This document shows, one piece after another, positions 39,687 to 57,626 of a DNA stretch of 64,000 nt. The stretch's first letter is position 1, and each line of letters opens with the position of its first letter. The notes beneath the pieces were generated by a model. That model had not been told where the DNA came from, made no database searches, and saw only the letters and a program-made list of their open reading frames with translations. A program made the position numbers and the translations under genes. The DNA is taken from NCBI RefSeq assembly GCF_014287275.1, contig NZ_JACONZ010000002.1, forward strand, positions 1 to 64,000, given 5' to 3'. Origin of the DNA: Anaerofilum hominis. GTDB lineage: Bacteria; Bacillota; Clostridia; Oscillospirales; Ruminococcaceae.

Positions 39687-39730
39687 GAAGAACGCTCCTT
39701 TCAAATGGGGAGAAATAGATAGCAAAGACA

Positions 39731-41548: not shown

Positions 41549-42082
41549 ATGGATTCTTTCGCAGAACTGGCTGCGCGCCGGCAGAGCTGCCGCGCCTATG
41601 ACCCCGCCCGGCAGGTGGAGCCGGAAAAGCTGGAGGCCTGCCTGCAGGCTGCGCGGCTGGCCCCCTCCGCCTGCAACAGCCAGCCCTGGCACATCACGCT
41701 GGCCCAGGGCAGCTTGGCGGCGCAGGTGGGCGAGTGCCTGCGCAGCATGGGGATGAATAAATTCACCGCCGGCTGCCCGGTTTTCGCGGTGGTCACAGAG
41801 GAGGGCTACAACCCCTCTGCCGCCGCGGGCGCAAAGCTCAAAGATCAGGATTACCGCTCGGTGGATATCGGCATCATGGCGGCCCATTTCACGCTGCAGG
41901 CCGCGGATCTGGGGCTGGGCAGCTGCATTCTGGGCTGGTTTGATGAAAAAAAGCTCCAGCGTCTGCTGCACACCGACAAAAGGGTGCGGCTGGTGTTGGC
42001 GCTGGGCTACCCCAGTGAGGGGGATCCGCTGCGGCCCAAGACCCGCAAGCCTCTGGACGAGCTGGTTTCCCGGCCCGGGTGA
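41549..42082 (+). CDS. Nitroreductase-family protein 3
   Basis: 177 residues from the ATG at 41549. ELAARRQSCRAYDPARQV, RLAPSACNSQPWHITLA and ADLGLGSCILGWFDE are the FMN-site loops. FTAGCPVFAVVTEEGYNP is typical of the branch common in gut Clostridia. Substrate unknown. Third paralogous-type flavoenzyme in 24 kb; divergent from pyrB. Confidence 0.85.
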   Translation: MDSFAELAARRQSCRAYDPARQVEPEKLEACLQAARLAPSACNSQPWHITLAQGSLAAQVGECLRSMGMNKFTAGCPVFAVVTEEGYNPSAAAGAKLKDQDYRSVDIGIMAAHFTLQAADLGLGSCILGWFDEKKLQRLLHTDKRVRLVLALGYPSEGDPLRPKTRKPLDELVSRPG

Positions 42083-42165
42083 GGCGTGCGTCCGGCCCGC
42101 TCTGCCGGCCCGGGTCGACCGGACGGCCGGCGATCTGCACTTCAGAAGAACGGAGGAAACTGAAA

Positions 42166-42504
42166 ATGCCCTTTATCCATACCATGACCAACCTGCCCAT
42201 CCCGGAGGAAACGGAAAAAAGACTGAAAGCCGCTTACGGCGAGGCGGCGGCCCTGATCGGCAAAAGTGAAAACTGGCTGATGCTGCGCTTTGAGGACAGC
42301 TGCCGCCTTTGGATGGCGGGCAGCGGGGAGCCCGCCGCGATGGTACAGGTGGACCTGTACGGAAAAGCGGCCCCCGAAGCGTATGAAGCCATGACCGCCC
42401 GCCTCACCGCCGTGCTGGAAAAAGAGCTGGGCCTTGCGCCCGGGCGCGTGTATGTGAGGTATGCGCAGACCCCCTATTGGGGCTGGGACGGCGGCAATTT
42501 CTAA
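42166..42504 (+). CDS. MIF-like tautomerase-superfamily protein
   Basis: 112 residues from the ATG at 42166. After Met removal the N-terminus is Pro (MPFIHTMTNLPI), the catalytic base of tautomerases. The beta-alpha-beta repeats and the end YVRYAQTPYWGWDGGNF match the macrophage-migration-inhibitory-factor group. It probably tautomerises phenylpyruvate-like keto-enols; the physiological substrate is unknown. It follows the nitroreductase by 83 bases. Confidence 0.85.
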   Translation: MPFIHTMTNLPIPEETEKRLKAAYGEAAALIGKSENWLMLRFEDSCRLWMAGSGEPAAMVQVDLYGKAAPEAYEAMTARLTAVLEKELGLAPGRVYVRYAQTPYWGWDGGNF

Positions 42505-42549
42505 CCGTGCTCCCGGCGGGATGCTGCGCGGCCCGACAGGTACAGGAAA

Positions 42550-42620
42550 GAAATAATTTCTCTGTTTGGATTGTATTGATTTCTTTTGTTTGGTATAATT
42601 ATCCAGAAGAAAATCATTTC
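42550..42620 (+). promoter_or_regulatory. deoR-family gene promoter with flanking palindromes
   Basis: TTGTAT (42571-42576), 17-base spacer, TATAAT (42594-42599). The promoter is bracketed by GAAATAATTTC (42550-42560) and GAAAATCATTTC (42609-42620), a plausible pair of autoregulatory sites. Confidence 0.6.
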
Positions 42621-42648
42621 GTATGAAAATCAAATTTGAGGTTTTGAT

Positions 42649-43419
42649 ATGACATCCTATCAGGAACGCGCGGATTTTATTTTGAACCAGCTTGAACAGT
42701 TAGGGGAAGTACGGGTGAAAGAACTCAGTGCCTGTCTCAACTGTTCCGAGGTGACAATACGGGGTGACATTCGGCGGTTAGAGGGGGAGGGACTGCTCAA
42801 ACGGACCCACGGGGGCGCGATCAATAAGGTGCGCATGTTAGAGGTACTGTGTGAGCCGGGCGAATACATGTGGAATCAACAGGAAAAGGCGCGCATCGCC
42901 TCCTGCGCATATGAATACATCAACAATCGGGATTCCATCATCATCGATGATTCCACCACTGGTGGTTATCTGGCAAAAGTGATCCGGCAGCACCCACAAA
43001 AGCACATTATTGTGATTACCAATTCGCTTCTGGCGGCTGCGGAGCTGTCTGCGGCAAAGCACGTGGAACTTTTTGTCGTCAGCGGGCATGTGATCGGGGC
43101 GCCTCCGGCGGCGCTGGACAATTTTACAATCGACGCCTTTCATCAGTTCAAAGTTTCCAAGGCTTTTATCGGTGCCAATGGAATCAGCCTGCGAGACGGA
43201 TTATTTTCGCTAGGGGCACCCCAGCGGGATGTGAAGAAAGCGATCATCTCAGTCTCTAACGAGGTGTATGTCCTTGCGGACCACACGAAATTTGACGGCG
43301 GCAATCTGTTCAATATCTGTGGGATGGACGAGGTCACCAGAGTGATCACCGACAGCAAGGTGAGCGAGGAGATCATAAAAGAGACAAAGGAGCGGGGAAT
43401 CTATATAGATATCGTATAA
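42649..43419 (+). CDS. DeoR-family transcriptional regulator
   Basis: 256 residues. The N-terminal winged helix (QLGEVRVKELSACLNCSEVT, then GLLKRTHGGA) is the DeoR HTH; the remaining DeoRC domain (DSIIIDDSTTGGYLAKVI, ALDNFTIDAFHQFKVSKAFIGANG) binds a sugar phosphate. It lies directly upstream of the pdxA2-DUF1537-liv operon and is the obvious regulator. A tetronate or tetrulose phosphate is the likely effector. Confidence 0.9.
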   Translation: MTSYQERADFILNQLEQLGEVRVKELSACLNCSEVTIRGDIRRLEGEGLLKRTHGGAINKVRMLEVLCEPGEYMWNQQEKARIASCAYEYINNRDSIIIDDSTTGGYLAKVIRQHPQKHIIVITNSLLAAAELSAAKHVELFVVSGHVIGAPPAALDNFTIDAFHQFKVSKAFIGANGISLRDGLFSLGAPQRDVKKAIISVSNEVYVLADHTKFDGGNLFNICGMDEVTRVITDSKVSEEIIKETKERGIYIDIV

Positions 43420-43430
43420 CCTGCCTCCGC

Positions 43431-43490
43431 AAAACAAAACAGAGAGCCGCTCAGGAAGTTTTTTATCCTGGGCGGCTCTCTGTTTTGTTT
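43431..43490. terminator. Terminator after the deoR-family gene
   Basis: A long stem (AAAACAGAGAGCCGC with its complement, plus an inner CAGGA/TCCTG) and T-rich end. Confidence 0.8.
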
Positions 43491-43642
43491 AAAAAAGGAG
43501 GTGATGTTTCGATAAAATGTCGAATATTTGCGATTTTTTAAAAAAACGAAAATGAAAAGAAATATTATTTGGGAAAAAGCTCAAAAAAATAAAATAAAAA
43601 ATAACAAATATAATGAAAATAGTTGGAATAAACTGTTTAATA

Positions 43643-43671
43643 TTGCGATTTTGCTTTTGTATTGCTAAAAT
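43643..43671 (+). promoter_or_regulatory. Promoter of the C4 sugar-acid operon
   Basis: TTGCGA (43643-43648), 17-base spacer, TAAAAT (43666-43671) with an extended TGC. It is embedded in an extremely AT-rich stretch (43491-43766). A hairpin GGTC...GACC enclosing AAAGA-gag-TCTTT (43767-43790) follows in the leader and may be the operator. Confidence 0.55.
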
Positions 43672-43831
43672 GAGAGTAAATAAAAAATTGTTTTTTGAAT
43701 TCAAAAATAAAAAATTTGCTATTTTTTAAAAGACAAAAAATTTTCTTTTTTAACTTTTTTAAAAAAGGTCGAAAGAGAGTCTTTGGGACCTTGTACAAAC
43801 TGTAAGATATCAAGCGTAAGGAGTGGCCGCT

Positions 43832-44875
43832 ATGTCAGAACAATGGAGACCGATTACTGCCATCACGATGGGAGACCCGGCCGGGATAGGGCCGGAGATC
43901 TGCGTGGATACGATGTTGGACGAGGGAGTCCACAAGCTCTGCCGCCCCTTTGTGATAGGCTCTCTTCCTATTTTGCAGCGCGCGGCCGACTGTAAAGGGG
44001 CCCATCTGGAGTTTCGCCGCATCAGCGATCCGCGAGAGGCTCAATATCTGCCAGGCGTCTGCGATATCCTGGAGACGGGCGACTATGATACGGATTCCAT
44101 CGTCTGGGGAAAGGTGCAGAAGCTGGCGGGTCGGATGTCGTTGGATTTCATTTATAAGTCGATCGAACTGGGGCTTGCCAAAAAGATCGATGCGGTCTCC
44201 ACCAGTCCCATCAACAAGCAATCGATCAAACTGGCCGGCTGCAAAGAGCCCGGACACACCGAGATTTATCAGAAAAGGACGGGCAGCCGCTATGCCCTGA
44301 CCATGTTCAGCTGCCACAAGCTGCGGGTCTTTTTTGTAAGCCGGCATATGAGTCTGATTGACGCCTGCCACTTTGCCAATAAGGCAAATGTTTTGCAGGA
44401 TGTCATTGATATTGATACTGAGCTAAAAAAGATCGGGATCACGCGGCCGCTGATCGCGGTGGCGGCGTTGAACCCCCATGGAGGGGACAACGGACTGTTC
44501 GGCACCGAAGAGCAGACAGACCTGATCCCGGCGGTGGAAGAGGCGTGCCAGTTGGGGATCAACTGTGTGGGACCCTGCCCAGCGGACTCGGTGTTTAACC
44601 TTGGGAAATCGGGAAAGTATGACGCGATCCTTTCCCTTTACCACGATCAGGGCCATATCGCCTGTAAGACACTGGATTTTGAAAAGTCTGTCACCCTGAC
44701 CTTTGGTCTCCCTTTTATTCGCAGTTCGGTAGACCACGGCACGGCGTTTGATCTGGCCGGAAAAGGGCTGGCCCAGGGTGAATCTATGATCGAATCCACC
44801 AAAGTAGTCTCAGAGTATGCCGCTCTTCAACATGAAAAAGAGGAGATGGGCCGAACGGCAGGATCTGCTTGCTAA
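43832..44875 (+). CDS. PdxA2-type 4-phospho-threonate/erythronate dehydrogenase
   Basis: 347 residues from the ATG at 43832 (AAGGAG site). PdxA fold with TMGDPAGIGPEI, PGHTEIYQ (metal His), ALNPHGGDNGLFG and YHDQGHIACKTL. The YHDQGHIA and SVDHGTAFDLAG blocks are typical of the PdxA2 branch that pairs with DUF1537 kinases and oxidatively decarboxylates 4-phospho-tetronates to DHAP and CO2. No vitamin B6 genes are nearby. Confidence 0.88.
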   Translation: MSEQWRPITAITMGDPAGIGPEICVDTMLDEGVHKLCRPFVIGSLPILQRAADCKGAHLEFRRISDPREAQYLPGVCDILETGDYDTDSIVWGKVQKLAGRMSLDFIYKSIELGLAKKIDAVSTSPINKQSIKLAGCKEPGHTEIYQKRTGSRYALTMFSCHKLRVFFVSRHMSLIDACHFANKANVLQDVIDIDTELKKIGITRPLIAVAALNPHGGDNGLFGTEEQTDLIPAVEEACQLGINCVGPCPADSVFNLGKSGKYDAILSLYHDQGHIACKTLDFEKSVTLTFGLPFIRSSVDHGTAFDLAGKGLAQGESMIESTKVVSEYAALQHEKEEMGRTAGSAC

Positions 44876-44890
44876 AGGGGGATGAGGAAA

Positions 44891-46246
44891 ATGCCTTTTC
44901 TGGGTGTGGCGGCAGACGATCTCACTGGGGCGACGACTGCGGGTGTGCTGCTGGCTCGCTCCGGGGCTCGCGCCACAGTCTTTTATGATGGGCAGTCCCA
45001 ACTGGGCGAGGAGGGAGAACGGGCGGATGCGGTACTGATCAGCACTTCCAGCCGTTCGCTCCGTCGGGAACAGGCCTATTTCCAGGCCGCACAGGCGACC
45101 CGCGCCCTGCGTGAGGCGAGAGCCCAGTATTTTTCGAAACGCATTGACACAACCCTGCGCGGACAGATCGGAGCGGAGCTCGACGCTATGCTGGATATGC
45201 TGGGGGACAGTACGGTGGCGATCGTCGTACCGGCCATGCCCCAGTCAAGGCGCATCCTAGTAGGCGGATATTCTGTGATAGACGGCGTCGTGCTTTCCCA
45301 GACCCCTGTGGCGCAGGATGTCCTCACCCCGGTGAGGGAGGCTTATGTACCCGACCTGCTGCAGGAGCAGAGCAAGCGCAAGGTGGGGCTGGTGCCGCTG
45401 AAATCAGTGCTCACAGGTCCGGAGGAAACGGCAGAAGCGTTGCGCAGCCAGAGGGCGCGGGGGTGTGAGATCCTGGTGGTAGACGCTGTTACCTTGGAGG
45501 ATATAGGTACGGTGGCCCGGGCCTGCGCCGATCTCCAGTGGCGGATATTGTCTGCTGATCCCGGCCCGTTTACGGTGCAGCTGATGCGTTGCCGAAGCCT
45601 GCTGGGGGAGGAACGTTCCGTCCCCATCCGGCCCGCGGCGATACTAGGGCAGGCGGCACCAGGGCAGGCGGTGCTGGTGGCGGCGGGGTCTGCCACACCG
45701 GTCACACGGGAACAGATGGAAGTGTTGACGAAGCGTAAAAGAACCCTCCAAATCAGCATAGACCCGGCCCGACTGGCTTTTGACGGCCGCGAGGCGCGGG
45801 AAGAGGGCCTGGCCGCGGCCGCAAAGGCGATGGCGGCTTTGAAAGGAGCGGATGCACCGGAAGTAGTCCTGCTGGAGACAGCTTTGCACGGGACACGGCT
45901 GCAGCTGGACCAGGTGGACCAAGAGCATGGATACCCCAAGGGCAGGAGTGCAGAACTGATCAATAAGGGCCTGGGGTGGATCGTTGCCCGGATCTTGGAC
46001 GAACGGGCGGACCGCGTCGCCGGGCTCTACTGCACCGGGGGCGATACGGAGGTACAGGTGTGCCGGGCGTTAGGATCACCTTGCTTAGAGATGGTGGACT
46101 ACGTCTTTCCGCAGGCGGATTTGGCGCGGTTGCGGGGGAGATATGCGGGGATGCCCATTGTTGGCAAAGGCGGTTTGACTGGAAGCAGCGAGGCTGCTTG
46201 TGTGATCGTGGATAGGATTTTTAAAGAGGCTGGCCGGATGTCCTGA
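44891..46246 (+). CDS. DUF1537 four-carbon acid-sugar kinase
   Basis: 451 residues from the ATG at 44891 (a second ATG nine bases earlier touches the ribosome site). VAADDLTGATTAGVLLA is the sugar-acid-binding N-domain signature. The nucleotide-binding C-domain ends with GGDTEVQV and VGKGGLTGSSEA. Family members phosphorylate D-threonate, L-threonate or D-erythronate at O4. The product is the substrate of the PdxA2 protein encoded 15 bases upstream. Confidence 0.9.
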   Translation: MPFLGVAADDLTGATTAGVLLARSGARATVFYDGQSQLGEEGERADAVLISTSSRSLRREQAYFQAAQATRALREARAQYFSKRIDTTLRGQIGAELDAMLDMLGDSTVAIVVPAMPQSRRILVGGYSVIDGVVLSQTPVAQDVLTPVREAYVPDLLQEQSKRKVGLVPLKSVLTGPEETAEALRSQRARGCEILVVDAVTLEDIGTVARACADLQWRILSADPGPFTVQLMRCRSLLGEERSVPIRPAAILGQAAPGQAVLVAAGSATPVTREQMEVLTKRKRTLQISIDPARLAFDGREAREEGLAAAAKAMAALKGADAPEVVLLETALHGTRLQLDQVDQEHGYPKGRSAELINKGLGWIVARILDERADRVAGLYCTGGDTEVQVCRALGSPCLEMVDYVFPQADLARLRGRYAGMPIVGKGGLTGSSEAACVIVDRIFKEAGRMS

Positions 46247-46269
46247 GCTTCAGAAAGAGGGGAGATAAG

Positions 46270-46707
46270 ATGAAAATTGCATTTGGAAGTGATCCTAACG
46301 CCACCGAATACAAGGAAAAGATGATGAAGTATGTGGTGGGCTTGGGCCATGAGGTGATGGATTTTGGTTCAGACGACCCCATCTACGCGCATGTGGCCAT
46401 CCAGGTAGCAGAACAAGTGGCTGCAAAAAAGTATGACAGGGGCATCCTGTTCTGCGGCACCGGCCTTGGGATGATGCTGGCTGCGAACAAGGTGAAAGGC
46501 GCCTACGCCGCAGTGGTGGGGGATGTGTACAGCGCTCAGAGAGCCTGCCTGTCCAACAATTGCAATATCATTACTCTGGGATCCCAGGTCACCGGAGAAA
46601 AAAAAGCGGAAGCACTCATCCACGAGTATCTGGAATGCACCTATATCTATAACGACCGTTCCGGCAAAAAGGTGGATGCTATCATCGAATATGAACAGCG
46701 ACATTGA
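46270..46707 (+). CDS. RpiB/DerI-like sugar-phosphate isomerase
   Basis: 145 residues. ILFCGTGLGMMLAANKVKG holds the catalytic Cys and phosphate loop, and CLSNNCNIITLGSQ follows the family pattern. The usual GSDHAG at the N-terminus is GSDPNA here, so the phosphate-site His is replaced by Pro. In tetritol catabolism an RpiB homologue (DerI/EryI) turns D-erythrulose-4-P into D-erythrose-4-P; ribose-5-P isomerase is the alternative. Confidence 0.8.
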   Translation: MKIAFGSDPNATEYKEKMMKYVVGLGHEVMDFGSDDPIYAHVAIQVAEQVAAKKYDRGILFCGTGLGMMLAANKVKGAYAAVVGDVYSAQRACLSNNCNIITLGSQVTGEKKAEALIHEYLECTYIYNDRSGKKVDAIIEYEQRH

Positions 46708-46740
46708 GTAGGGACGGGAAAGAAGCGCGAGGATGAAAAG

Positions 46741-47526
46741 ATGAAAAAGATCTATTTTGGGACAAATCTCAAAATGTACAAGGATATCCGCGAGACCAAG
46801 CGCTACCTCTCGGACCTGGAGGCACGCACCCGGGACATTTCTCGGGCGGAGATAGAACTGTTTGTGCTGCCCTCTTTCACCTCTCTGCCAGACGCCTGTC
46901 GCAATACGGACCGGCGGCTCATCCGGTTGGGCGCACAGAATATGTGCTGGGAGGAGCAGGGCCAGTTTACAGGCGAGGTCAGTCCTCTGATGCTGCAGGA
47001 ACTGGGGTTGGATCTGGTGATGGCTGGCCACTCAGAGCGGAGACATGTCTTTCGTGAGACGGATAAAGAGGAGAACTGCAAAGTGCGAAGCGCTTTGGAA
47101 CACGGTTTCACGGCTTTGCTCTGCATCGGGGAGACAGCGGAAGAAAAAGAGTGCGGACTCAGCGACGCATCGCTGAGAGGCCAACTGCTTGCCGGGTTGG
47201 ATGGTATATGGCCCGGCCAGGCCCCGGACCTCTGGATCGCCTATGAACCGGTCTGGGCTATTGGGGTAGAGGGGGTTCCCGCCACGGCGGAATATGCCGC
47301 TGAGAAACACCGGGTGATCCGGTGTTGTCTCAAAGCGCTGCTGGGTGAGGCCGGCGCACAGGTGCCGATCCTTTACGGCGGCAGCGTCAACCCGGACAAC
47401 GCCGACGAATTCATCACCTGCGCAGAGATTGACGGGATGTTCGTGGGCCGCAGCGCTTGGCAGGCACAAACCTTTGAAAAAATGATCCGCAGCGCGCTCG
47501 CCGCTGCCCGCAGGGCGGGAAAATAG
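46741..47526 (+). CDS. TpiA/LerI-like isomerase
   Basis: 261 residues, a TIM barrel. FGTNLKMYKD has the catalytic Asn and Lys but the usual Trp of NWKM is Leu; AGHSERRHVF has the catalytic His, IAYEPVWAIG the catalytic Glu, and YGGSVNPDN the phosphate loop. It could be a true triose-phosphate isomerase acting on DHAP from PdxA2, or a LerI/EryH-type L-erythrulose-1-P isomerase, as suggested by its adjacency to the RpiB-like gene. Confidence 0.82.
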   Translation: MKKIYFGTNLKMYKDIRETKRYLSDLEARTRDISRAEIELFVLPSFTSLPDACRNTDRRLIRLGAQNMCWEEQGQFTGEVSPLMLQELGLDLVMAGHSERRHVFRETDKEENCKVRSALEHGFTALLCIGETAEEKECGLSDASLRGQLLAGLDGIWPGQAPDLWIAYEPVWAIGVEGVPATAEYAAEKHRVIRCCLKALLGEAGAQVPILYGGSVNPDNADEFITCAEIDGMFVGRSAWQAQTFEKMIRSALAAARRAGK

Positions 47527-47598
47527 CAAGAACCCGGCAAGCGGAGGGAACTCCGTCTTGTGAAATAAAAAACAGACAGAAGAAATGGAGAGAGAAAA

Positions 47599-48810
47599 AT
47601 GAAAAAGATCATGGCATTCATCATGGCACTGACATTAACGTTCAGTTTGGCGGCCTGCGGAGGCAGCTCTTCCTCTGCAGAAGTCAGCGGGAGTGGTGGC
47701 GCGACCGGGTCAGGAAACCTGGCGGTGGCGGAGGACGAAAAGGTTTATGTGGGCGTTTGCAGCCACCTTTCCGGCAGCTATTCTTATCTTTATGAGTACG
47801 CCAAAGAATCTTTTGATGTCTGCTTGAGCTATCTCAATGCCAACGGCGGCATTATGGGCCACGAAGTGGAGGTCGTGTGGTTTGATCTGGGCGACAGCAT
47901 CGATACCGCAATGAATGCCTTTGAGTTGGCGACAGAGGACAAACGACTCTCAACGATCGTCATGAGCACTTATTCGCAGAACTGTCTGGCCGTATTGGAC
48001 GCAGCTACCGCCGCCAAGATACCTACCTTTATGGGCGGCTCAGGTGACGCGATTAATACGGGGGCCGACTATATCTGGATGAACCGACCGCTGGACAGCT
48101 CCGCGTCGGCTACCATCGTCACCTATGCGGTAGACACGTTGAAATATACCAAGCCGGTGATCTGCTACAACACTTTGGCTTCCACCCAAGCGGGCGCTGA
48201 GTATATGATCGAATACTTGGGAGATCGCGGCATCGAAGTGGACGACGCACACACTTTTGGCTATTCCAATGAGGAAAAAAACTTTGACACCTACGCAGCG
48301 CAGGTCAAGAGCCTGATCGATGCGGGCGAGTGCGACGGCATCCTCTGCTTTGGCAACCAAACCGATCTTGCGGCGCTCGCAAAATCGCTGGACGCCGCCG
48401 GCTGCGATGTACCCTGCATGGGCAACGCACAGGTGATCAATGAGACCACCCTCAGTCTGGCAGGCGCCTCGATCAACGGCTGGTATTCGGTAGCGGAGTC
48501 CTACGCGGAGGATGAGGGCAAGCTGAACCAGGAATTTCGAGAGATCTACAATGAGGCGACGGGACACTATCCTACCACCAACCTGTACGGCGGATATTTC
48601 CTGTTCTATCTTGAAGCTCTCTGCGAAAAAGCCGGGGATCCTTATGATCGTGATTACATCAATGAAGCCATCAAAGAGGTGGAATTTGACACCCCCTCTG
48701 GCATCTACAAATATTGGGGCGAGGGAGACAGCAATCTGCGAAACAACATGTATGTCTGCGTGGTCGAGGACGGCGTGGCAAAGATTTTAAACTCGGTAGA
48801 GTATCGCTGA
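47599..48810 (+). CDS. Liv-type ABC transporter substrate-binding lipoprotein
   Basis: 403 residues with a lipoprotein signal (FSLAACGGSS, lipid on Cys20) and a Ser/Gly linker. The mature part is Peripla_BP_6: VYVGVCSHLSGSYSYLYEYA, LNANGGIMGHEVEVVWFD, YPTTNLYGGYFLFYL. This fold binds branched-chain amino acids, but also aromatic acids, urea and amides. In this operon the cargo is probably the sugar acid or its ester. Confidence 0.88.
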   Translation: MKKIMAFIMALTLTFSLAACGGSSSSAEVSGSGGATGSGNLAVAEDEKVYVGVCSHLSGSYSYLYEYAKESFDVCLSYLNANGGIMGHEVEVVWFDLGDSIDTAMNAFELATEDKRLSTIVMSTYSQNCLAVLDAATAAKIPTFMGGSGDAINTGADYIWMNRPLDSSASATIVTYAVDTLKYTKPVICYNTLASTQAGAEYMIEYLGDRGIEVDDAHTFGYSNEEKNFDTYAAQVKSLIDAGECDGILCFGNQTDLAALAKSLDAAGCDVPCMGNAQVINETTLSLAGASINGWYSVAESYAEDEGKLNQEFREIYNEATGHYPTTNLYGGYFLFYLEALCEKAGDPYDRDYINEAIKEVEFDTPSGIYKYWGEGDSNLRNNMYVCVVEDGVAKILNSVEYR

Positions 48811-48947
48811 CAGAGGAACGCTTTTGAACAGCGAACGGGCATTCTTTTGGCGGAGGGCCGGAGGCCGTAAAGACCGCGGTGGAAGGCCGTAGAGGGTTTG
48901 TAATCGATAAACAGATGCGGTGGAAACACCGGTAAAGCGGGGTCATT

Positions 48948-49841
48948 ATGAACTTTAATTTATTTGTTTCACTGCTGGTAAACGGCTTGGCGATGGGAAT
49001 GGTATACGCGTTGTTGGCGATGGGGCTCATCATGCTTTTTCGCTCTGCCGGCGTTATGAACTTCGCCCAGGGGATGATGTTGGCCGTCGGCGCATATATC
49101 AGTTACGCCACCCAGGTACAGGCGGATCTGCCGCTTTATGCGGCGATCCCTCTTTGTCTGGCTTCCTATGTGGTCTTCGGGCTCATTTTTATGGCTTGTA
49201 TCTATCTGCCGCTGAAAGATACAAAATTCCCTGCGGCGATTGTCGTGGCCACGATGGGGACCTCCTCCATCCTCTCTGAAGCCTGTACTCTGATCTGGGG
49301 AGGCGAGGCATTGTCGGTGCCGTACCTGGTTACCAACGGAGAGGGCAAGAGCGCCTATCTGACGATCGGCGGCGTTTCAATCCAATGGCAATACATCCTC
49401 ACCACCATCGTGGGCGTCGTGCTGATCTTTTTGGTCTATGTACTGTTCGACAAGCTGTACGTGGGGAAAATGATGGAAGCGGCCGCGCAGGACAAATACA
49501 CTGCCTCGCTGATCGGAATCCCCAAGTTGGTCACGATCGCCATCACCTATGCGATTGCCATCTCGCTGGGATGCATCGGTGGGTTTATGGTCTCCCCGGT
49601 GACCTACTGTTCCGTGAGCCTCAGCTCTCTCCAGCTGCGGGCTTTCGCCTCGGTGGTCATCGGCGGCACGCGCAGCATCAAAGGCGCTGTGATCGGTGCG
49701 CTGCTGGTGGGGCTGGTGGAAGCTTTTGCCACAGTCAACCTGTCCAATTACAAAGATGCAGTGGTATTTATTCTCCTAATCGTATTTTTGCTGGTCAAAC
49801 CGGATGGCTTGGTACGCAGCAAGATTGGCGATAAGGCGTGA
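48948..49841 (+). CDS. Liv-type ABC transporter permease (LivH-like)
   Basis: 297 residues, about eight membrane segments. GLAMGMVYALLAMGLIMLFR and SAGVMNFAQGMMLAVGAY open the family; FASVVIGGTRSIKGAVIGAL is the EAA-type cytosolic loop that contacts the ATPase. Second gene of the transporter set. Confidence 0.92.
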   Translation: MNFNLFVSLLVNGLAMGMVYALLAMGLIMLFRSAGVMNFAQGMMLAVGAYISYATQVQADLPLYAAIPLCLASYVVFGLIFMACIYLPLKDTKFPAAIVVATMGTSSILSEACTLIWGGEALSVPYLVTNGEGKSAYLTIGGVSIQWQYILTTIVGVVLIFLVYVLFDKLYVGKMMEAAAQDKYTASLIGIPKLVTIAITYAIAISLGCIGGFMVSPVTYCSVSLSSLQLRAFASVVIGGTRSIKGAVIGALLVGLVEAFATVNLSNYKDAVVFILLIVFLLVKPDGLVRSKIGDKA

Positions 49842-49850
49842 GGTGTGGAT

Positions 49851-50873
49851 ATGAAATTGATTCAGAAGCCTTTGAGGCGATTTCGGGTGTCGACTCTGCT
49901 GCTATTTGCTCTGGTGCTGCTGTGCGCCGTTCTGGTGCCCCAATTGTTTTCCGGCTATACCCTTAAAGTCATCAACCTTTCCCTTCTTTACGGCATCATG
50001 GTGTTGAGCACGGTGATCGTGCTGGGAATGGGCGGACAGATGTCCATGGCGAACGTGGCGATGTTTGGCCTGGGGGCTTACGTCACCGCCAACCTTTGCT
50101 CCAGCCATATGGGAATCAAAAATTTTAATACGTTGCTGGCGCTCGTCATCTCCGTCGTCGGGGTGGGACTAGTCTCTTTTCTGCTGGGGCTTCTTCTGGA
50201 AAGACTGGATGGAACCTTTTTCACTTTTGCCACAATTGGCGTCGTCCAGGTCTGTGCGGCATTTTTTTCGCAGTATCGGCCGCTTTTTGGAGGCCCGGAT
50301 GGCATCAGTGGTGTGGCTAAGTTGGAGCTGTTCGGATTTAAAGTAGAGGATTATAAAAGCTGGTTTTATGTGCTGGTGTTTTTCCTCCTCGTGGTCGGTG
50401 CTTTTACGGCGCGGCTGAAAAAGACGAAATTTGGCCGCTCGCTTTTCTGTATCCGCGACAACAAGACCGCTGCTGTCACGCTGGGCGTGAATGTTTTTAT
50501 GACGCGGGTATATGCGTTTACCATCCAAGGGATCATCTGTGGCCTATGCGGCGCTCTGTATGCCTTTATGAACGGTTATGTGGGATCCACCATGTTCACG
50601 TTCACCAAGGCGACTGACATGATGATGATGACTATGATCGGCGGCCTGAACAGCATTGCAGGTTCCGTTTTTGGGTCCTTTGTTGTCACGGTTCTGCCTG
50701 AAACGCTGCGAAGTTTACAATCTTACCTGCGCTTAATCTTTGGCGTGATCGTGGTGCTGCTGATGATCTTTATGCCCACAGGTCTGGCGGGGTTGGCGTC
50801 GTCCACGGCGGAAAAAGCCGGGCGTAGGCTACGCAAGGCGAAAGAAAAGAAGAGTGAGGCGAGGCAACCATGA
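49851..50873 (+). CDS. Liv-type ABC transporter permease (LivM-like)
   Basis: 340 residues, about ten membrane segments. LGMGGQMSMANVAMFGLGAY and TMIGGLNSIAGSVFGSF are the LivM signatures. A basic C-terminal tail (KAGRRLRKAKEKK) faces the cytosol. The last four bases overlap the LivG-like gene. Confidence 0.92.
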   Translation: MKLIQKPLRRFRVSTLLLFALVLLCAVLVPQLFSGYTLKVINLSLLYGIMVLSTVIVLGMGGQMSMANVAMFGLGAYVTANLCSSHMGIKNFNTLLALVISVVGVGLVSFLLGLLLERLDGTFFTFATIGVVQVCAAFFSQYRPLFGGPDGISGVAKLELFGFKVEDYKSWFYVLVFFLLVVGAFTARLKKTKFGRSLFCIRDNKTAAVTLGVNVFMTRVYAFTIQGIICGLCGALYAFMNGYVGSTMFTFTKATDMMMMTMIGGLNSIAGSVFGSFVVTVLPETLRSLQSYLRLIFGVIVVLLMIFMPTGLAGLASSTAEKAGRRLRKAKEKKSEARQP

Positions 50874-51625
50874 AACCTGTATTGGAGCTAGAGCACATAA
50901 ACAAGGCTTTCGGTGGGGTGATTGCCGCCAGTGATGTGACCTTTTCGGTGATGCCCGGAGAGATCCACGGCCTGATAGGGCCGAATGGGGCCGGAAAGAC
51001 CACAATGATGAACATCATCAGCGGAATCTATAAAGCGGACAGCGGCAAGATCTTTCTTTCGGGAAAAAGTATCGCGGAGATGCCCGCCCATCGGCGATCG
51101 GTTATGGGGATTGGGCGCACTTTTCAAAGTCCGCGCCTGCTGAAAGGGGCGAATATTCGGGACAATCTGCTGGTAGGTACCGATGTGGCACAGGATATGG
51201 GCTATGCCAAAAGCTTCTTCAGCCGCAGAGACCGAGCGTTTGAAAAAGAACTGGAAGAATACATGGAAATTGCAGGTTTTTCGATCGACTTGGAAGATGA
51301 CATCTCTAAGCTGACCTTTGGGCAGCGCAAGATATTGGAGATCATCCGTTCCCTGCTTGCCAACCCCAAAATCATGCTGGTGGACGAGCCCGCGGCTGGG
51401 CTGAATGAGAATGAAGGAGAAAACGCCATGGCTCTGCTGCGGCTGGTAGCGAGCAAGGGGATTGCCGTACTCTTTATTGAGCATGCCATGCATCTGGTCA
51501 TGAACACTTGCCACCAGATCGAGGTGCTCAATTTCGGAAAGATCATCGCATCCGGCACGCCGCAAGAGGTCTCCAACAACAAAGAGGTAATTGCCGCTTA
51601 TCTGGGGAGGGCCGACGATGATTGA
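50870..51625 (+). CDS. Liv-type ABC transporter ATPase (LivG-like)
   Basis: 251 residues. Walker A GPNGAGKTTMMN, Walker B IMLVDEPAAGLN and the typical LivG-type loop GIGRTFQSPRLL. The ABC signature region reads LTFGQRK in place of the usual LSGGQ/LSYGQ, within family variation. It overlaps both neighbours. Confidence 0.93.
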   Translation: MKPVLELEHINKAFGGVIAASDVTFSVMPGEIHGLIGPNGAGKTTMMNIISGIYKADSGKIFLSGKSIAEMPAHRRSVMGIGRTFQSPRLLKGANIRDNLLVGTDVAQDMGYAKSFFSRRDRAFEKELEEYMEIAGFSIDLEDDISKLTFGQRKILEIIRSLLANPKIMLVDEPAAGLNENEGENAMALLRLVASKGIAVLFIEHAMHLVMNTCHQIEVLNFGKIIASGTPQEVSNNKEVIAAYLGRADDD

Positions 51626-52340
51626 GATCCGCGATTTGCATTGCTATTATGGGGCGATTGAGGCGTTGAGAGGCATTAACATGAAGATCGAGGACGGCGC
51701 CATCACCTGCCTCATCGGTTCCAACGGCGCGGGGAAGACCAGCACCCTGAAGTCCATCTCCAACGTGGTGTGCCGCACTGGAGGTATTATTTATGATGGT
51801 GTCGACCTCTCACATTTGAGAGATATTCAGATCGCCAGGCAAGGAGTCATTCACGTCCCGGAAGGGCGCGGAGTTTTTCCGGGCCTTACAGTGGAGGAGA
51901 ACCTACTTACCGGTACTGTCAACTGGCACGGTCTGTTCGGCAAGGGGAGATACGACCAGGATCTGGCAGAGGTGTACGAACTTTTTCCGCGTCTGCAGGA
52001 GCGCCGCAATCAGCTCGCTTGGTCCCTGTCCGGCGGAGAGCAACAGATGCTCGCAATCGGGCGTGGCTTGATGGGGCGGCCGAAAGTGATGATGCTGGAC
52101 GAGCCGTCGATGGGGCTGGCGCCCTTGGTGGTGGCAGAGCTTTTTGAAAAGATAGTGGAGATTAACAGGGAGCGCGGTATCACGATCCTGCTGGTGGAGC
52201 AAAATGCAAAACTGGCACTGAAAGTGTCCAATTACGCTTATGTGCTGGAGCAGGGATGTATCCTGTTAGAGGGGCCTGCAGAAGAGCTGCGGTATGACCC
52301 GAGAGTGGTGTCCGCTTATATGGGGACCGGCGCACATTGA
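51618..52340 (+). CDS. Liv-type ABC transporter ATPase (LivF-like)
   Basis: 240 residues from the ATG at 51618. Walker A GSNGAGKTSTLK, signature SLSGGEQQM and Walker B VMMLDEPSMGLAP are intact; HVPEGRGVFPGLTV is the LivF-specific Q-loop region. It pairs with the LivG-like subunit. Confidence 0.94.
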   Translation: MIEIRDLHCYYGAIEALRGINMKIEDGAITCLIGSNGAGKTSTLKSISNVVCRTGGIIYDGVDLSHLRDIQIARQGVIHVPEGRGVFPGLTVEENLLTGTVNWHGLFGKGRYDQDLAEVYELFPRLQERRNQLAWSLSGGEQQMLAIGRGLMGRPKVMMLDEPSMGLAPLVVAELFEKIVEINRERGITILLVEQNAKLALKVSNYAYVLEQGCILLEGPAEELRYDPRVVSAYMGTGAH

Positions 52341-52376
52341 ACTTTTGTGGCAGGACCTGACAAGAAAGGAGAAAAA

Positions 52377-53888
52377 ATGGCGATTTTAAGGGCTGAAACA
52401 ACTCTGGGAGTTGTAAAAGGACAACCAGCTGGCAACCATATCGTGTCTGTTTTCAAGGGAATACCCTACGCAAAGTCCCCCGTTGGAGAGTTGCGTTGGA
52501 AAGCCCCGCAGCCGGCGGAGCCCTGGCAGGGCGAGCGGGAATGCTACGTGTTTTCATCTATTCCCATGCAACCCCGGCGTCCCAAAGACTCTTTTTATAC
52601 GCGATCATTTTTTCCGGTATCTCTGCCCCGCAGCGAGGATTCTCTCTATCTCAATATCTGGACTCCGGCCGAGTCTGCCCAGGAGCGGTTGCCGGTTGCC
52701 TTTTGGATCTTTGGCGGAGGGTATACGACCGGATACGGAAATAAGATTGAGTTTGACGGGGAAGGATTTGCCAAACGAGGCTGTGTTTTTGTCGATTTCA
52801 ACTACAGAGTAGGGCCATTTGGTTTCCTTGCGCACCCGGAATTGAGCGCGCAGGATGAAAACGGCGTGTCGGGAAATTATGGCCTGCTGGACCAGCTTGC
52901 CGCCCTGCGATGGGTAAAAGAAAACATCGCCGCATTTGGAGGGGATCCGGATCAGATTACGATTTTTGGGCAGTCGGCCGGAGCTGGGAGCTGTATGTGT
53001 CTTGACTGCAGCCCACTTGCCAAGGGGCTGTTTCAACGGGCGATCTATGAGAGTGGCGGCGGTTTTTCCGTGACGGGAATCCAGAATCTGGACTCTTTGG
53101 CAGAAGCTGAACAGAGAGGTGTGGAAACACTGGAAGCTTTGGGTCTGCCCGATATCGCTGCGGCGCGGGCCATGGATGGGGAACAGCTGATCGACCAGCT
53201 GTACTCTATGGACCGCACGGGGGATGCGCTTGGGTTTAGGCCCAATCAGGACGGTTATGTCCTGCGGGAATCCATTTTGGACTGCCTTATCTCCGGGCAT
53301 AACCATGTGGTTCCCTTTATGATCGGCTGCACAGCCAATGAGGGCTATGCGTTTGAAAAAGATGTTTTTGCCCAGGCCGTGCACTATGGCGACAGAGCAG
53401 AGGACTATCTCAAAGCCTGTGGAGTATCTCTCTCCAGCTCATCTAAGGACGCTGTGGACACTTTTGGAGAAAGTATGTTTGCCTCTTGTCTGTCCTGGAA
53501 CGAGTTTGAGCTATGGCGGAGCGGTAAGAGCGGATACCAGTACTATTTCACGAAAAAAGCCCCAGGAGATGACAGCGGGGCATTCCATTCTGCTGAACAT
53601 CACTATATTTTTCAGACACTGGAGAGGGACTGGAGACCTTATGACGGCACGGACTACGACCTGTCCAACTTAATGGCGGAGTACTGGGCAAACTTTGTAA
53701 AGACCGGAGATCCCAACGGAGCTGACCTCCCCCGCTGGGAGCGCTTTGAAGAAAGTGGGCGCATGATGGAACTGGGTTACCGGGTCGGGATGATCGAGCC
53801 CTTTCTTCCTCCTAACGTGAGATTCAATGTGGATTATACTCTGGAGATGATGAAAGAGAGATATCGGGAATTTAAAACAACCCTTTGA
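52377..53888 (+). CDS. Type-B carboxylesterase
   Basis: 503 residues from the ATG at 52377 (AAAGGAG site). GIPYAKSPVGELRW, EDSLYLNIWTP, FGGGY (oxyanion hole) and GQSAGAGSCM (nucleophile Ser about 202) are the COesterase blocks; ANEGY gives the acid residue and GAFHSAEHHY the histidine. No signal peptide, so it is intracellular and would cleave an imported ester. It lies 36 bases after the LivF-like gene, so it belongs to the operon; an acylated sugar acid is my favoured substrate. Confidence 0.85.
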   Translation: MAILRAETTLGVVKGQPAGNHIVSVFKGIPYAKSPVGELRWKAPQPAEPWQGERECYVFSSIPMQPRRPKDSFYTRSFFPVSLPRSEDSLYLNIWTPAESAQERLPVAFWIFGGGYTTGYGNKIEFDGEGFAKRGCVFVDFNYRVGPFGFLAHPELSAQDENGVSGNYGLLDQLAALRWVKENIAAFGGDPDQITIFGQSAGAGSCMCLDCSPLAKGLFQRAIYESGGGFSVTGIQNLDSLAEAEQRGVETLEALGLPDIAAARAMDGEQLIDQLYSMDRTGDALGFRPNQDGYVLRESILDCLISGHNHVVPFMIGCTANEGYAFEKDVFAQAVHYGDRAEDYLKACGVSLSSSSKDAVDTFGESMFASCLSWNEFELWRSGKSGYQYYFTKKAPGDDSGAFHSAEHHYIFQTLERDWRPYDGTDYDLSNLMAEYWANFVKTGDPNGADLPRWERFEESGRMMELGYRVGMIEPFLPPNVRFNVDYTLEMMKERYREFKTTL

Positions 53889-53893
53889 GGGAA

Positions 53894-53935
53894 AGGCCCC
53901 GGAAAGGACGGCTGCGGCTTTCCTATTTCGGGGCC
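53894..53935 (+). terminator. Hairpin after the carboxylesterase operon
   Basis: AGGCCCCG / CGGGGCCT ends with an inner GGAAAG / CTTTCC pair. No T tract follows, so termination is uncertain. Confidence 0.45.
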
Positions 53936-53955
53936 TATCCTATCGCCTGGCAATG

Positions 53956-53964
53956 TGCTATACT
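53956..53964 (+). promoter_or_regulatory. Extended -10 promoter of the alpha/beta-hydrolase gene
   Basis: TGCTATACT, 84 bases before the GTG at 54048. Confidence 0.45.
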
Positions 53965-54047
53965 GAAAACGATCCTGTGACCTAGTAATTCAGGCCGCGC
54001 AGTGCCTGGATGGGCGTCGGAGAACAAAAGGAGGGGGGATCTACTCA

Positions 54048-54917
54048 GTGGCACAACAGACGATCGAGCCCCGCGAGTCGGGCTATCTGCAGACAGGGGA
54101 CACTTATCTTTATTATCGGGACTATGGCGACAACGCGGCGCCGCATACCTTGCTGCTGCTGCACGGCAACGGCGAGGACTGGCGCTGCTTTGAGCGCCAG
54201 ATCGGACCCTTTGCCGCGGCGGGGTACCGGGTGGTGACGCTGGACAGCCGGGGGCACGGCGCGTCCAAAAGGGGAAAACTGCCCATGACCCCGCAGCAGC
54301 TCGCCGCCGATGCGCTGGATGCGCTGGAGGGGCTGGGGATCGCCAAAGCGGTCCCGGTGGGGTTTTCCGACGGCGGCAACCTGGCCCTGCTGATGGCGGC
54401 GATGCGGCCGGATGTGGTGGAAGCGCTGGTGGCCGCCGGGCCGAACCTGGTGCCGGCAGGGGCGAAGCTCTCCGCCCAGCTGCCCTGTGAACTGGGCTAT
54501 CCCCTGTGCCGCCTGCTGGGCAGATGGTCGCCGCAGGCGGCGCTGCGGGCGGATGTTCTGGGCCTGATGGTGGATCAGCCGCAGCTCTCTTTTGAGGCGC
54601 TGTCCGCGATCGCCGCGCCGGCGCTTATCCTGGGCGGCGAACACGACATGATCCGGGCGGGGCATCTGCGCCATATTGCCGCCGCTCTGCCCTGCGGGCG
54701 GCTTTCCGTGCTGGCGGGGGCGAGCCATTTTGTCTTTGGCGAGCCCTGGGCGGAAGAGACGAACCGCCGGGTGCTGGGCTTTCTTGCCCAGGTGCTGCCG
54801 CGGAAAAAGGCGGTGGGCCCCGGAGCGGAAACAGTCCCGGCGCCAGCGGCTGCGGACGCGGAGGAAGCGGAAGCGGGACCGCTGGCAGAAGTTTTCTTTG
54901 AAAATCCATTGACATGA
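54048..54917 (+). CDS. Alpha/beta-fold hydrolase
   Basis: 289 residues from the GTG at 54048 (AAGGAGGGG site). LLLLHGNGEDWRCF (oxyanion HGNG), VTLDSRGHGAS, VGFSDGGNLAL (nucleophile Ser about 106), GGEHDMIRAG (acid) and AGASHFVF (His). The family includes haloperoxidase-like and lactone hydrolases; the substrate is unknown. The last 30 residues are Ala/Glu-rich and probably disordered. Confidence 0.85.
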   Translation: MAQQTIEPRESGYLQTGDTYLYYRDYGDNAAPHTLLLLHGNGEDWRCFERQIGPFAAAGYRVVTLDSRGHGASKRGKLPMTPQQLAADALDALEGLGIAKAVPVGFSDGGNLALLMAAMRPDVVEALVAAGPNLVPAGAKLSAQLPCELGYPLCRLLGRWSPQAALRADVLGLMVDQPQLSFEALSAIAAPALILGGEHDMIRAGHLRHIAAALPCGRLSVLAGASHFVFGEPWAEETNRRVLGFLAQVLPRKKAVGPGAETVPAPAAADAEEAEAGPLAEVFFENPLT

Positions 54918-54937
54918 TATCCGGCAGCTTATATAAT
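54909..54937 (+). promoter_or_regulatory. Consensus promoter of the GntR-tal-tkt operon
   Basis: TTGACA (54909-54914), exactly 17 bases, TATAAT (54932-54937): a perfect sigma-A match overlapping the hydrolase stop codon. Further TATAAT copies follow within 20 bases. Confidence 0.85.
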
Positions 54938-54959
54938 CATAATATAATATAATGTTATA

Positions 54960-54995
54960 ATAAATGAGGGAAAAAGATCTGCTTTCCTCATTTAT
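54960..54995. promoter_or_regulatory. Inverted repeat downstream of the consensus promoter
   Basis: ATAAATGAGG and its perfect complement CCTCATTTAT around a 16-base centre, at about +15 to +50. It could be the operator of the GntR protein or a leader hairpin. Confidence 0.5.
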
Positions 54996-55184
54996 AGAGA
55001 CCGGCGCCCAGGCGCGCGCGGGCGTCCCGCTGCTGCCGCCGCCTTTAAAGGGCGGCGATCGGGTCTCGATCCGCCACCGCCGCCGGGAAAGACAGCACCT
55101 GCCGGGCCCGGTGCAGGCGGTTTCGGCAGGGCGCGGGGCTCAGGGACAAAAGTGAAGAAACTTCTATAAAGGGGGTGCGGACGC

Positions 55185-55919
55185 GTGGAAAACGAGCTTG
55201 ATTTCAGCGGCCGTACCCAATTGTATTTTCAGCTCTATGACATCCTGTACAAGGATATCCGGGACGGCGTTTACAAGCCCGGCCAGTTGCTGCCCACCGA
55301 GAACACCCTGATCGAGCAGTACCACATCAGCCGCATCACGGTGCGCAAGGCGCTGGATCTTTTGATGAACGACGGCCTCATCGCCAAACGCCGCGGCTAC
55401 GGCACCTTCGTGCAGAACCGCAAGGTGGAGCAGACCCTCACCCGCGTACAGCATTTTGCCAATGAGATGGAAAAGCGGGGCTATGTGTCCTCTGTGACCA
55501 TGCTGGCCAACGAGGTGGTCTACGCCAGCAAGGCCGTTGCCGGCGAGCTGCACATCGGCGAGGGAGACGAGCTGGTGCGGGTCGAGCGGCTGCGCTATGC
55601 CGACGGGGTGCCCATGTGCATCGAAAATTCTTACCTCATCCGCGCCCGGTGCCCCGACGTTCAGCGGCACGACTTCTCCAAGCAGTCGCTGCGCAAGTTT
55701 CTGGAAGAGCGCTACGACATTGTCTGGAAGCGCGCCCGGCAGAAGATCTATGCCGTGGCCGCCACGGGGCGCACGGCGAACTATCTGGGCATCAAGGAGG
55801 GCGACCCCCTCATCTACATAGAGCGGGTGTCCTACACCCGGGACGACGAGCCTGCCGAGTATCTGCAGACCTGGTACCGGGGCGACAGCTACTATCTGAC
55901 GGCCGAGCTGCAGGCCTGA
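55185..55919 (+). CDS. GntR-family (HutC/UTRA) regulator
   Basis: 244 residues from the GTG at 55185. Winged helix at 10-75 (YFQLYDILYKDIRDGVYKPG, ISRITVRKALDLLMNDGLI) and a UTRA effector domain from about 90 (VERLRYADGVPMCIENSYL, YIERVSYTRDDEPAEY). UTRA domains bind sugar phosphates, fitting the transaldolase and transketolase genes that follow. Probably autoregulated. Confidence 0.88.
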   Translation: MENELDFSGRTQLYFQLYDILYKDIRDGVYKPGQLLPTENTLIEQYHISRITVRKALDLLMNDGLIAKRRGYGTFVQNRKVEQTLTRVQHFANEMEKRGYVSSVTMLANEVVYASKAVAGELHIGEGDELVRVERLRYADGVPMCIENSYLIRARCPDVQRHDFSKQSLRKFLEERYDIVWKRARQKIYAVAATGRTANYLGIKEGDPLIYIERVSYTRDDEPAEYLQTWYRGDSYYLTAELQA

Positions 55920-56003
55920 GCAAAGGTTCCTTTGCCGCGCGCGGGGGAGAGCGCTTCCGCCGGGGCATCCAATAAAATCATTCTATTTTAGGAGGACGGC
56001 ATT

Positions 56004-56663
56004 ATGAAATTCTTCATCGACACCGCAAACGTGGAAGAGATCAAAATGGCAAACGACATGGGCGTCATCTGTGGCGTCACCACCAACCCCAGCCTGATCG
56101 CCAAAGAGGGCCGCGACTACGCCGAGACGCTGGCGGAGATCGCCTCCATCGTCGACGGCCCCATCTCTGGCGAGGTCAAGGCCACCACCGCCGACGCCGA
56201 GGGCATGATCGCCGAGGGCCGCGCCATCTATGCGCTGGACCCCAAGCACATGGTCGTCAAGATCCCCATGACTGTTGAGGGCCTGAAAGCCATCAAGGTG
56301 CTGGCCGCCGAGGGCATCCCCACCAACTGCACCCTGATCTTCAGCGCCAACCAGGCGCTGCTGGCCGCCCGCGCCGGCGCCGCCTACGTCTCCCCGTTCC
56401 TGGGCCGTCTGGACGACATCAGCATGCCCGGCATCGACCTGATCCAGACCATCAGCGACATGTTTGCCAATTTCCCCGACATCCACACCGAGATCATCGC
56501 CGCTTCGGTCCGCAACCCCATCCATGTCACCGACTGCGCGCTGGCCGGGGCCGACATCGCCACCGTGCCCTATAAGGTGATCGAGCAGATGACCAAGCAC
56601 CCGCTGACCGACCAGGGCATCGAGAAGTTCAAGGCCGACTACATCAAGGTGTTCGGCGAGTAA
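56004..56663 (+). CDS. tal: Transaldolase, TalC/FSA type
   Basis: 219 residues, the short single-barrel form. [20 protein letters not shown] and [14 protein letters not shown] start the family, [17 protein letters not shown] holds the Schiff-base Lys, and [18 protein letters not shown] follows. It moves a dihydroxyacetone unit between sedoheptulose-7-P and glyceraldehyde-3-P, or cleaves fructose-6-P. Its strong GGAGGA site suggests high expression. Confidence 0.93.
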
Positions 56664-56778
56664 TTTTTTGCAAACAGGCTTTTTCCCGCCGGGCCGCGTC
56701 CCGGGCGGGAGAGGGCCGGGATCCAGCCGGGCGGCGGCTTTCCGCCTGCCGCCCGCCGTGAAAGGATGATAACAGAGC

Positions 56779-57624: not shown

Positions 57625-57626
57625 GT

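Follow-up and report, generated by a model that had tools for sequence, protein, structure and literature searches.

Which compound, and by which chemistry, would be consumed by a run of genes that joins a kinase and a dehydrogenase of sugar-acid metabolism to two sugar-phosphate isomerases, a Liv-type importer and an esterase? This question is raised by a 64,000-nucleotide stretch of Anaerofilum hominis contig NZ_JACONZ010000002.1 (termed here the window), in which ten co-directional genes occupy positions 43823-53888 of the forward strand and a deoR gene (42649-43419) lies directly before them. The explanation favoured here, at somewhat better than even confidence, is an inducible operon for sugar-acid import and catabolism, with the reactions, the substrate and the order of steps being those that the gene content suggests. 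A Liv-type ATP-binding cassette (ABC) importer would bring in an acidic, non-amino-acid ligand, from which, if it is an ester, a cytoplasmic type-B carboxylesterase would free the acid; a DUF1537 kinase would phosphorylate a terminal hydroxyl; a PdxA2 paralogue would oxidise the adjoining hydroxyl, giving a beta-keto acid that loses CO2; an L-erythrulose-1-phosphate isomerase (LerI)-type 'TpiA' and a D-erythrulose-4-phosphate isomerase (DerI)-type 'RpiB' would convert the resulting tetrulose phosphate to D-erythrose-4-phosphate; and transaldolase and transketolase would pass this into the pentose phosphate pathway. The genes concerned are the following.

42649-43419, forward strand: DeoR-family regulator (PF00455, DeoRC, 134.8 bits; PF08220, 52.5 bits)
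43823-44875, forward strand: PdxA2-type 4-phosphate dehydrogenase of a subgroup with VSRH and CKTLDF motifs (PdxA, 303.7 bits; NF002992, 493.7 bits, cut-off 470)
44882-46246, forward strand: DUF1537 protein, four-carbon acid sugar kinase family (PF07005, 204.3 bits; PF17042, 98.3 bits)
46270-46707, forward strand: RpiB-like isomerase with DerI-type signature, Ser for the RpiB His (LacAB_rpiB, 137.3 bits)
46741-47526, forward strand: isomerase resembling triosephosphate isomerase (TIM), with LerI-type signature, IGxxGxPA loop and GRSAW (TIM, 233.1 bits)
47599-48810, forward strand: Liv-type lipoprotein solute-binding protein (PF13458, Peripla_BP_6, 148 bits)
48948-49841, forward strand: LivH-type permease (PF02653, BPD_transp_2, 88.6 bits)
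49845-50873, forward strand: LivM-type permease (PF02653, BPD_transp_2, 115.9 bits)
50870-51625, forward strand: LivG-type ATPase (PF00005, ABC_tran, 96.4 bits; PF12399, 44.5 bits)
51618-52340, forward strand: LivF-type ATPase (PF00005, 93.0 bits; start moved from TTG 51591 to ATG 51618)
52347-53888, forward strand: type-B carboxylesterase (COesterase, 334.6 bits; Ser, Glu and His of the triad align)

The operon is genuine. A first-pass annotation of this DNA had proposed a co-directional, closely spaced series behind a DeoR regulator, and all of its genes are present at their given positions on a single strand, each above the curated Pfam cut-off of its family; the gaps from pdxA2 to the esterase gene are 6, 23, 33, 72, 137, 3, -4, -8 and 6 nt. 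Alternative starts exist for pdxA2 (GTG 43823 or ATG 43832) and for the esterase gene (GTG 52347 or ATG 52377). A tRNA-Glu called by ARAGORN at 47294-47388 falls inside the TIM-like gene, where Rfam finds no tRNA, and was taken as false; indeed, a search of positions 42400-56000, in which an RNA control was looked for, gave no Rfam match up to E 0.1.

What such an operon might do is indicated by its two isomerases. The closest solved relative of the TIM-like protein is a LerI (11ef, 200.7 bits), followed by a true TIM (194.3 bits). The window protein and 11ef both have a longer loop 6 (IGxxGxPA) and a GRSAW motif, as opposed to IGTG-xA and GGAS in TIM; the catalytic Lys, His and Glu motifs of TIM are retained. 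The distribution of these features was followed among relatives of the kinase: a contig scan with a kinase alignment gave 404 matches, of which the best 80, together with one plasmid locus (L081), form a set of 81 loci, many of them ending at contig borders. Genes in this set were counted as TIM-like if found with the window's protein, covered over at least 60% and located within 8 kb of the kinase gene. None of the 48 genes so obtained has GGAS; 40 have GR[SA]AW, five TRTAF and two GRFGL, and one is a fragment. The housekeeping copies of TIM and RpiB were judged from the genomes of relatives: their best-scoring TIMs, taken as housekeeping, have GGAS in seven cases out of seven, and a 60-row tree made with IQ-TREE sets them apart at a branch supported at 100/100, long branches (the window's included) making any finer placing unsure. 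Unlike these housekeeping copies, 'TpiA' carries the signature of a LerI-type tetrulose-phosphate isomerase, the activity that is predicted for it. A LerI-type gene with GRSAW in genome G006 (at loci L101 and L104) is interrupted by unknown bases only and lies near an open frame that, named by eye, resembles a dihydroxyacetone-kinase subunit.

The RpiB-like protein departs from its namesake in a corresponding manner, having LSNN as against the HND or HNN of RpiB, and RSGKKV as against GRHQxRV. Thus both RpiB hallmarks, the His and GRHxxRV, are absent, and the His is replaced by Ser as in 5ifz, which we take to be a DerI. In RpiB this His is the base that opens the ribose ring; its loss makes sense because four-carbon phosphates of the kind considered here form no such ring. 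Among the 48 RpiB-like genes near the kinase gene in the 81 loci, the residue is Ser in 45, His in two and Val in one. At a further 16 loci the LerI-type gene has no RpiB-like gene nearby; whole-genome searches for 12 of these found a Ser-type RpiB elsewhere in every one, and the other RpiB copy, read in nine of the 12, was His-type in all nine. A survey of 38 genomes of one family, centred on a genome (G008) that has the kinase and the isomerase by selection, found matches of at least 50% to the window's RpiB-like protein in two, G710 and G690 (judged from the match alone). Of the 37 genomes besides the centre, G710 alone has a close kinase (54%, E 1.8e-147), and five further ones have distant DUF1537 matches (26-32%). 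'RpiB' accordingly bears a DerI-type signature, and DerI activity is predicted for it.

The kinase and PdxA2 form the constant part of the module. With the kinase as bait, all 81 loci proved to have a pdxA2 gene no more than 1.7 kb upstream of it, and in 80 the distance does not exceed 0.6 kb, so that the pairing is more than chance. LerI-type and DerI-type genes are both near the kinase gene in 32 loci, and at least one of them in 60. In the six nearest loci (L001-L006) PdxA2 identity is 78-80% and, in five of the six, RpiB identity is 71-73%. The kinase carries both DUF1537 domains; the nearest NCBIfam model is that of D-threonate kinase (NF047819, by name a model for the gamma-proteobacterial type), which it reaches with 188.4 of 450 bits, and it gains 50.2 of the 700 bits set for OiaK. 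PdxA2 likewise stays under the D-threonate-4-phosphate dehydrogenase model NF002891 (270.9 of 583 bits), and its subgroup has conserved motifs of its own, VSRHMSL and CKTLDFEKS, the solved PdxA2 2hi1 having VSTHIAL and LKLLGFYDG. Such divergent motifs are in line with another substrate.

Enzymes of the PdxA type oxidise the carbon adjoining the phosphate-bearing one, and CO2 is lost. Threonate-4-phosphate would by this chemistry yield dihydroxyacetone phosphate (DHAP), leaving LerI and DerI without a task. The first-pass annotation had derived from this gene set the conversion of a four-carbon acid to DHAP; its broader proposal of a sugar-acid catabolic operon is supported, but the DHAP route is doubtful as the whole story, the LerI-type and DerI-type signatures being superfluous to it. 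If the acid carries a CH2OH branch on C2, however, the product of PdxA2 would be erythrulose-1-phosphate, the substrate of LerI, and DerI would then give erythrose-4-phosphate. A path through tetrulose phosphate to erythrose-4-phosphate is considered moderately probable.

A specific feed can be named more tentatively. Isoapionate, 2-C-(hydroxymethyl)tetronate, would be phosphorylated at O4 and oxidised by PdxA2 at C3 to 3-oxo-isoapionate-4-phosphate; decarboxylation would give L-erythrulose-1-phosphate, which LerI would convert to D-erythrulose-4-phosphate and DerI in turn to D-erythrose-4-phosphate. It is the only simple feed thought of that needs every enzyme of the operon; linear pentonates were ruled out on the chemistry of PdxA-type oxidation at the carbon next to the phosphate-bearing one. 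That isoapionate is the substrate, entering through the Liv importer as an ester or lactone from which the esterase frees it, and that the widespread module of pdxA2, DUF1537, LerI and DerI, usually with KdgT, is together with its Liv-fed form an undescribed path for it, is a conjecture that would sooner prove wrong than right. A literature search, with subscription papers mostly outside it, found no paper joining erythrulose with PdxA2 or DUF1537. A possible sink for erythrose-4-phosphate lies about 2 kb downstream.

56004-58568, forward strand: TalC/FSA-type transaldolase (56004-56663) and split transketolase (56779-57624 and 57627-58568)

These genes are probably a separate unit, with a full-consensus match to a sigma-70-type promoter (54909-54937) upstream of them; at the Klebsiella plasmid locus L081, rpiB, tal and tkt stand in one run.

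How the substrate enters is the point at which the operon parts from its relatives. The first-pass annotation took TRAP, MFS or GntP transporters to be the usual importers beside such enzymes; within this module it is instead a KdgT-type permease (so named from the annotation of L081) that is usual, occurring in 72 of the 81 loci; the gut commensal Coprococcus comes (L019) is one bearer of the KdgT module. For another DUF1537 cluster, PMC10580937 reports an MFS importer. At E<=1e-8 nothing in the 81 loci matches the binding protein, LivH, LivM or the esterase of the window; what matches LivG and LivF there does so weakly (21-33%) and is of a general ATPase kind. The core module is thus already known in kind, and the Liv importer and esterase are a local addition to it. 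This invites the reading that Liv genes and esterase are mere neighbours, that is, a true amino-acid or peptide-derivative importer placed behind a tetronate module, and the 72- and 137-nt gaps that flank the binding-protein gene, as well as the leucine-binding LivK 3td9 as top fold match, speak in its favour. Deprived of Liv, however, the module would have no importer, as against the KdgT of its relatives, and two further observations, on the ligand site and on the nearest relatives of LivG, render this reading distinctly improbable.

Like other HAAT/Liv importers, that of the operon is complete, with a binding protein, two permeases and two ATPases in the usual order; unlike them, it has a binding protein with few relatives and without the Asp of the ammonium site. 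Only 15 proteins matched at E<=0.001 among 7995 candidates scored, with identities of 96, 42, 32, 31% and lower. No particular ligand is singled out by the fold: the structural model of the protein (m695e6721712b, pLDDT 84.5, 15 rows) resembles Liv-type structures that contain leucine, urea, hydroxybenzoates or p-coumarate. More telling is the position of N280 in 4obb, a protein solved with a 2-oxo acid, whose N280D mutant (4nv3) was solved with a ligand read as valine (from an incomplete name). Here the window protein has Ala (GNAQ), whereas the LivJ protein 4gnr has Asp (GGDG), as do several other relatives (GxDG). The missing Asp fits a ligand other than an amino acid.

The second observation concerns 400 genomes of one family, in four of which the binding protein was matched at E<=1e-25, in three of the four near PdxA (L137, L138 and L139); these three PdxA-linked binding proteins also lack the Asp. 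When the same genomes were searched with LivG, 13 of them yielded a total of 15 matches at E<=1e-55, and the top three (59, 55 and 53%) are these same loci, the three with PdxA within 9 kb. For the other 12 no PdxA was found in the DNA read, of which five stretches are shorter than 9 kb and prove little. At L138 and L139 the operon encodes a PrpR-type activator, PdxA, a 2-hydroxyacid dehydrogenase, DUF1537, a dihydrodipicolinate-synthase-like aldolase, an iron alcohol dehydrogenase, the binding protein and livHMGF. At L137, where no DUF1537 gene was found, PdxA is on the opposite strand and a PfkB kinase is near; also present there are two similar binding proteins, a DeoC/LacD aldolase, a zinc alcohol dehydrogenase, a 2-hydroxyacid dehydrogenase and the N-half of a transketolase. 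The combination of Liv, PdxA and DUF1537 therefore exists in at least one other setting. As to the conservation of gene order on which the original proposal was made to depend, the pdxA2-DUF1537 part holds throughout the 81 loci, and the Liv addition holds in part: in none of these nearest loci, yet near PdxA in three of the 13 genomes with LivG matches, two of them with DUF1537. Among 397 genomes of the family to which G008 (source of locus L052) belongs, 17 matched the binding protein (E<=1e-30), at 24 places, and the 11 places read contain neither PdxA nor the kinase. With the Asp absent and the closest LivG relatives near PdxA, the earlier view that the importer is not one for amino acids is probably right, and a hydroxy or sugar acid as its cargo is regarded as likely.

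Two further sets of Liv-type binding proteins were noticed. Those of L141-L149 mostly have a GWY motif near residue 295 of the operon's binding protein and no Asp at the ammonium site, and may possibly form a clade for hydroxy acids. The proteins P0001 and P0004 are identical over their first 39 residues (signal and linker) and differ widely thereafter.

The esterase says less about the substrate. Its triad letters GQSAGAG, ANEG and AFHSAEH align with fumonisin esterase, and no signal peptide is evident by eye at its start; it is probably cytoplasmic. Because its relatives are many, the best solved ones including fumonisin and p-nitrobenzyl esterases within a generalist family, it indicates no substrate; its place in the operon nevertheless suggests uptake of an ester or lactone, which is a fair possibility falling short of even. 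One version of this would be a phenolic or other tetronate ester (for example, plant caffeoyl- or coumaroyl-threonate) that is imported and split inside, the acid passing to the kinase and the aromatic half leaving. Papers on many plants name caffeoyl- and coumaroyl-threonic acids, and the fold matches include Liv-type binding proteins holding p-coumarate, caffeate and hydroxybenzoates. The window offers a parallel too: next to the operon lies one for arabinose in which an ABC importer is likewise accompanied by an arylesterase-like gene. Such a source is nonetheless judged quite unlikely: none of the operon's genes was recognised as one for aromatic acids, the family of the esterase is generalist, and the LerI/DerI pair would go unexplained unless the acid were branched. 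The L-arabinose operon itself (29290-39773, reverse strand) encodes AraD, AraA, an FGGY kinase, a GntR/LacI-type regulator and an RbsABC-type importer, its lp_1002-like arylesterase/BD-FAE gene (38871-39773) scoring 180.3 of 300 bits, below the cut-off.

A number of observations must be set against the proposed route as a whole. Within the 81-locus set, L001 (4859-5461) and L003 (4845-5447) lack a LerI type and have an archaeal-type TIM (NF003302; 167.9 and 176.0 bits against a cut-off of 132), in the slot order permease, small membrane-type protein, archaeal-type TIM; this could mean that plain TIM is required or that the protein stands in for LerI, and because of it the odds given to the tetrulose-phosphate path were slightly lowered. 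For 'TpiA' an NCBIfam scan showed TIM models only and no LerI model, and LerI-type enzymes may keep some TIM activity. 'RpiB' reaches 117.3 of the 240 bits of NF051858, by name the model for rhizobial DerI, and passes the general RpiB subfamily model NF004051 (142.4 bits; cut-off 135). In G690 a DerI-like gene (52%) occurs without a close kinase. Neither isomerase is in reach of the kinase in 21 of the 81 loci, 11 of which extend at least 6 kb on both sides. The Asp is missing also from binding proteins with no PdxA nearby, and, because Liv importer and esterase match nothing in the 81 loci, the operon's ligand may not be the one handled by the KdgT modules.

An alternative to it is the DHAP path, in which a tetronate of the D-threonate type would enter, DUF1537 would phosphorylate it and PdxA2 would turn the product into DHAP and CO2; DHAP would be isomerised by the TIM-like protein, and the RpiB-like protein would serve a side path. 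DUF1537 kinases and PdxA2 act together on D-threonate; D-threonate kinase is the nearest model for the window's kinase at 188.4 bits; the TIM catalytic motifs are kept; and archaeal-type TIM fills the slot in two near relatives. Two papers also assign a DUF1537 kinase to D-threonate (PMC10971088) and PdxA2 to organic-acid catabolism (PMC9997740). Both enzymes, however, lie far under the cut-offs of their D-threonate models, a GGAS-type TIM is present besides in all seven relatives' genomes searched, so that a second TIM would be idle, and a Ser-type RpiB would have no role. This alternative is accordingly held to be unlikely, and the route through tetrulose phosphate is retained.

That route may be placed among known systems. 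The D-threonate pathway, reportedly described by Zhang et al. in 2016, consists of DtnK, a DUF1537 kinase, and PdxA2; the operon resembles it in having these two side by side, and differs in adding the LerI and DerI types, a PdxA2 with its own motifs, the Liv importer and the esterase. A LerI/DerI pair is said to function in erythritol catabolism (Barbier and colleagues, 2014). The operon has the same pair of isomerase types, by signature, but neither erythritol kinase nor erythritol-phosphate dehydrogenase, the feed being instead an acid kinase and PdxA2. The catabolism of D-apiose and apionate, attributed to Carter et al. (2018), is said to use the DUF1537 kinase OiaK and to end with L-erythrulose-1-phosphate, LerI, DerI and erythrose-4-phosphate. 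The proposed route would likewise run via 3-oxo-isoapionate-4-phosphate; in contrast, the operon genes include no RuBisCO-like decarboxylase and no oxidoisomerase, its kinase is not OiaK, and PdxA2 would both oxidise and decarboxylate. In apiose catabolism 3-oxo-isoapionate-4-phosphate is a known intermediate, decarboxylated by a RuBisCO-like protein (PMC6302742).

Control of the operon is suggested by three features upstream of pdxA2.

42579-42593, forward strand: candidate regulator site ATTTCTTTTGTTTGG upstream of deoR (pattern match, one mismatch)
43432-43490, forward strand: terminator-like inverted repeat after deoR, with 25-nt arms that are 96% complementary
43549-43563, reverse strand: candidate regulator site ATTTCTTTTCATTTT upstream of pdxA2 (pattern match)

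Because of the strong terminator-like repeat and the AT-rich, 403-nt gap between deoR and pdxA2, deoR is probably transcribed separately from the main unit. Its nearest NCBIfam model is AgaR (139.5 bits, far under the cut-off of 260). The two candidate sites are the sole matches to their pattern in the 64 kb with up to one mismatch (0.12 expected; two or more in one of 100 shuffles), a count that is post hoc since the pattern was derived from these very sites. The real test is the count in relatives, which share descent: a related shorter pattern, TTTCNTTTYNTTT, occurs in 33 of 75 upstream regions (mean 6.0 and maximum 10 in 20 shuffles), six of the 81 loci having been left out as their upstream DNA was short or unusable. 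Just before deoR, at 42079-42504, lies a gene for a small protein of the macrophage migration inhibitory factor family (PF01187).

As regards a phage origin of the operon, phage records gave no near match. Elsewhere in the window, positions 26415-27215 encode a Ku-domain protein (PF02735). Part of the window may be prophage, since 26% of the words sampled from it recur in a virus record (G001).

If the proposed route is true, a gene set that reads as 'threonate to DHAP, with TIM and RpiB' would be a separate route to erythrose-4-phosphate, one whose genes many gut Lachnospiraceae carry, as do some Oscillospiraceae and enterobacteria. Two genes resembling core glycolytic and pentose-phosphate enzymes would then be misnamed, and the range of reactions known for the PdxA family would grow if PdxA2 accepts a branched acid. 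The operon provides, moreover, a Liv-type importer whose substrate is likely to be something other than an amino acid, along with a short list of compounds to test.

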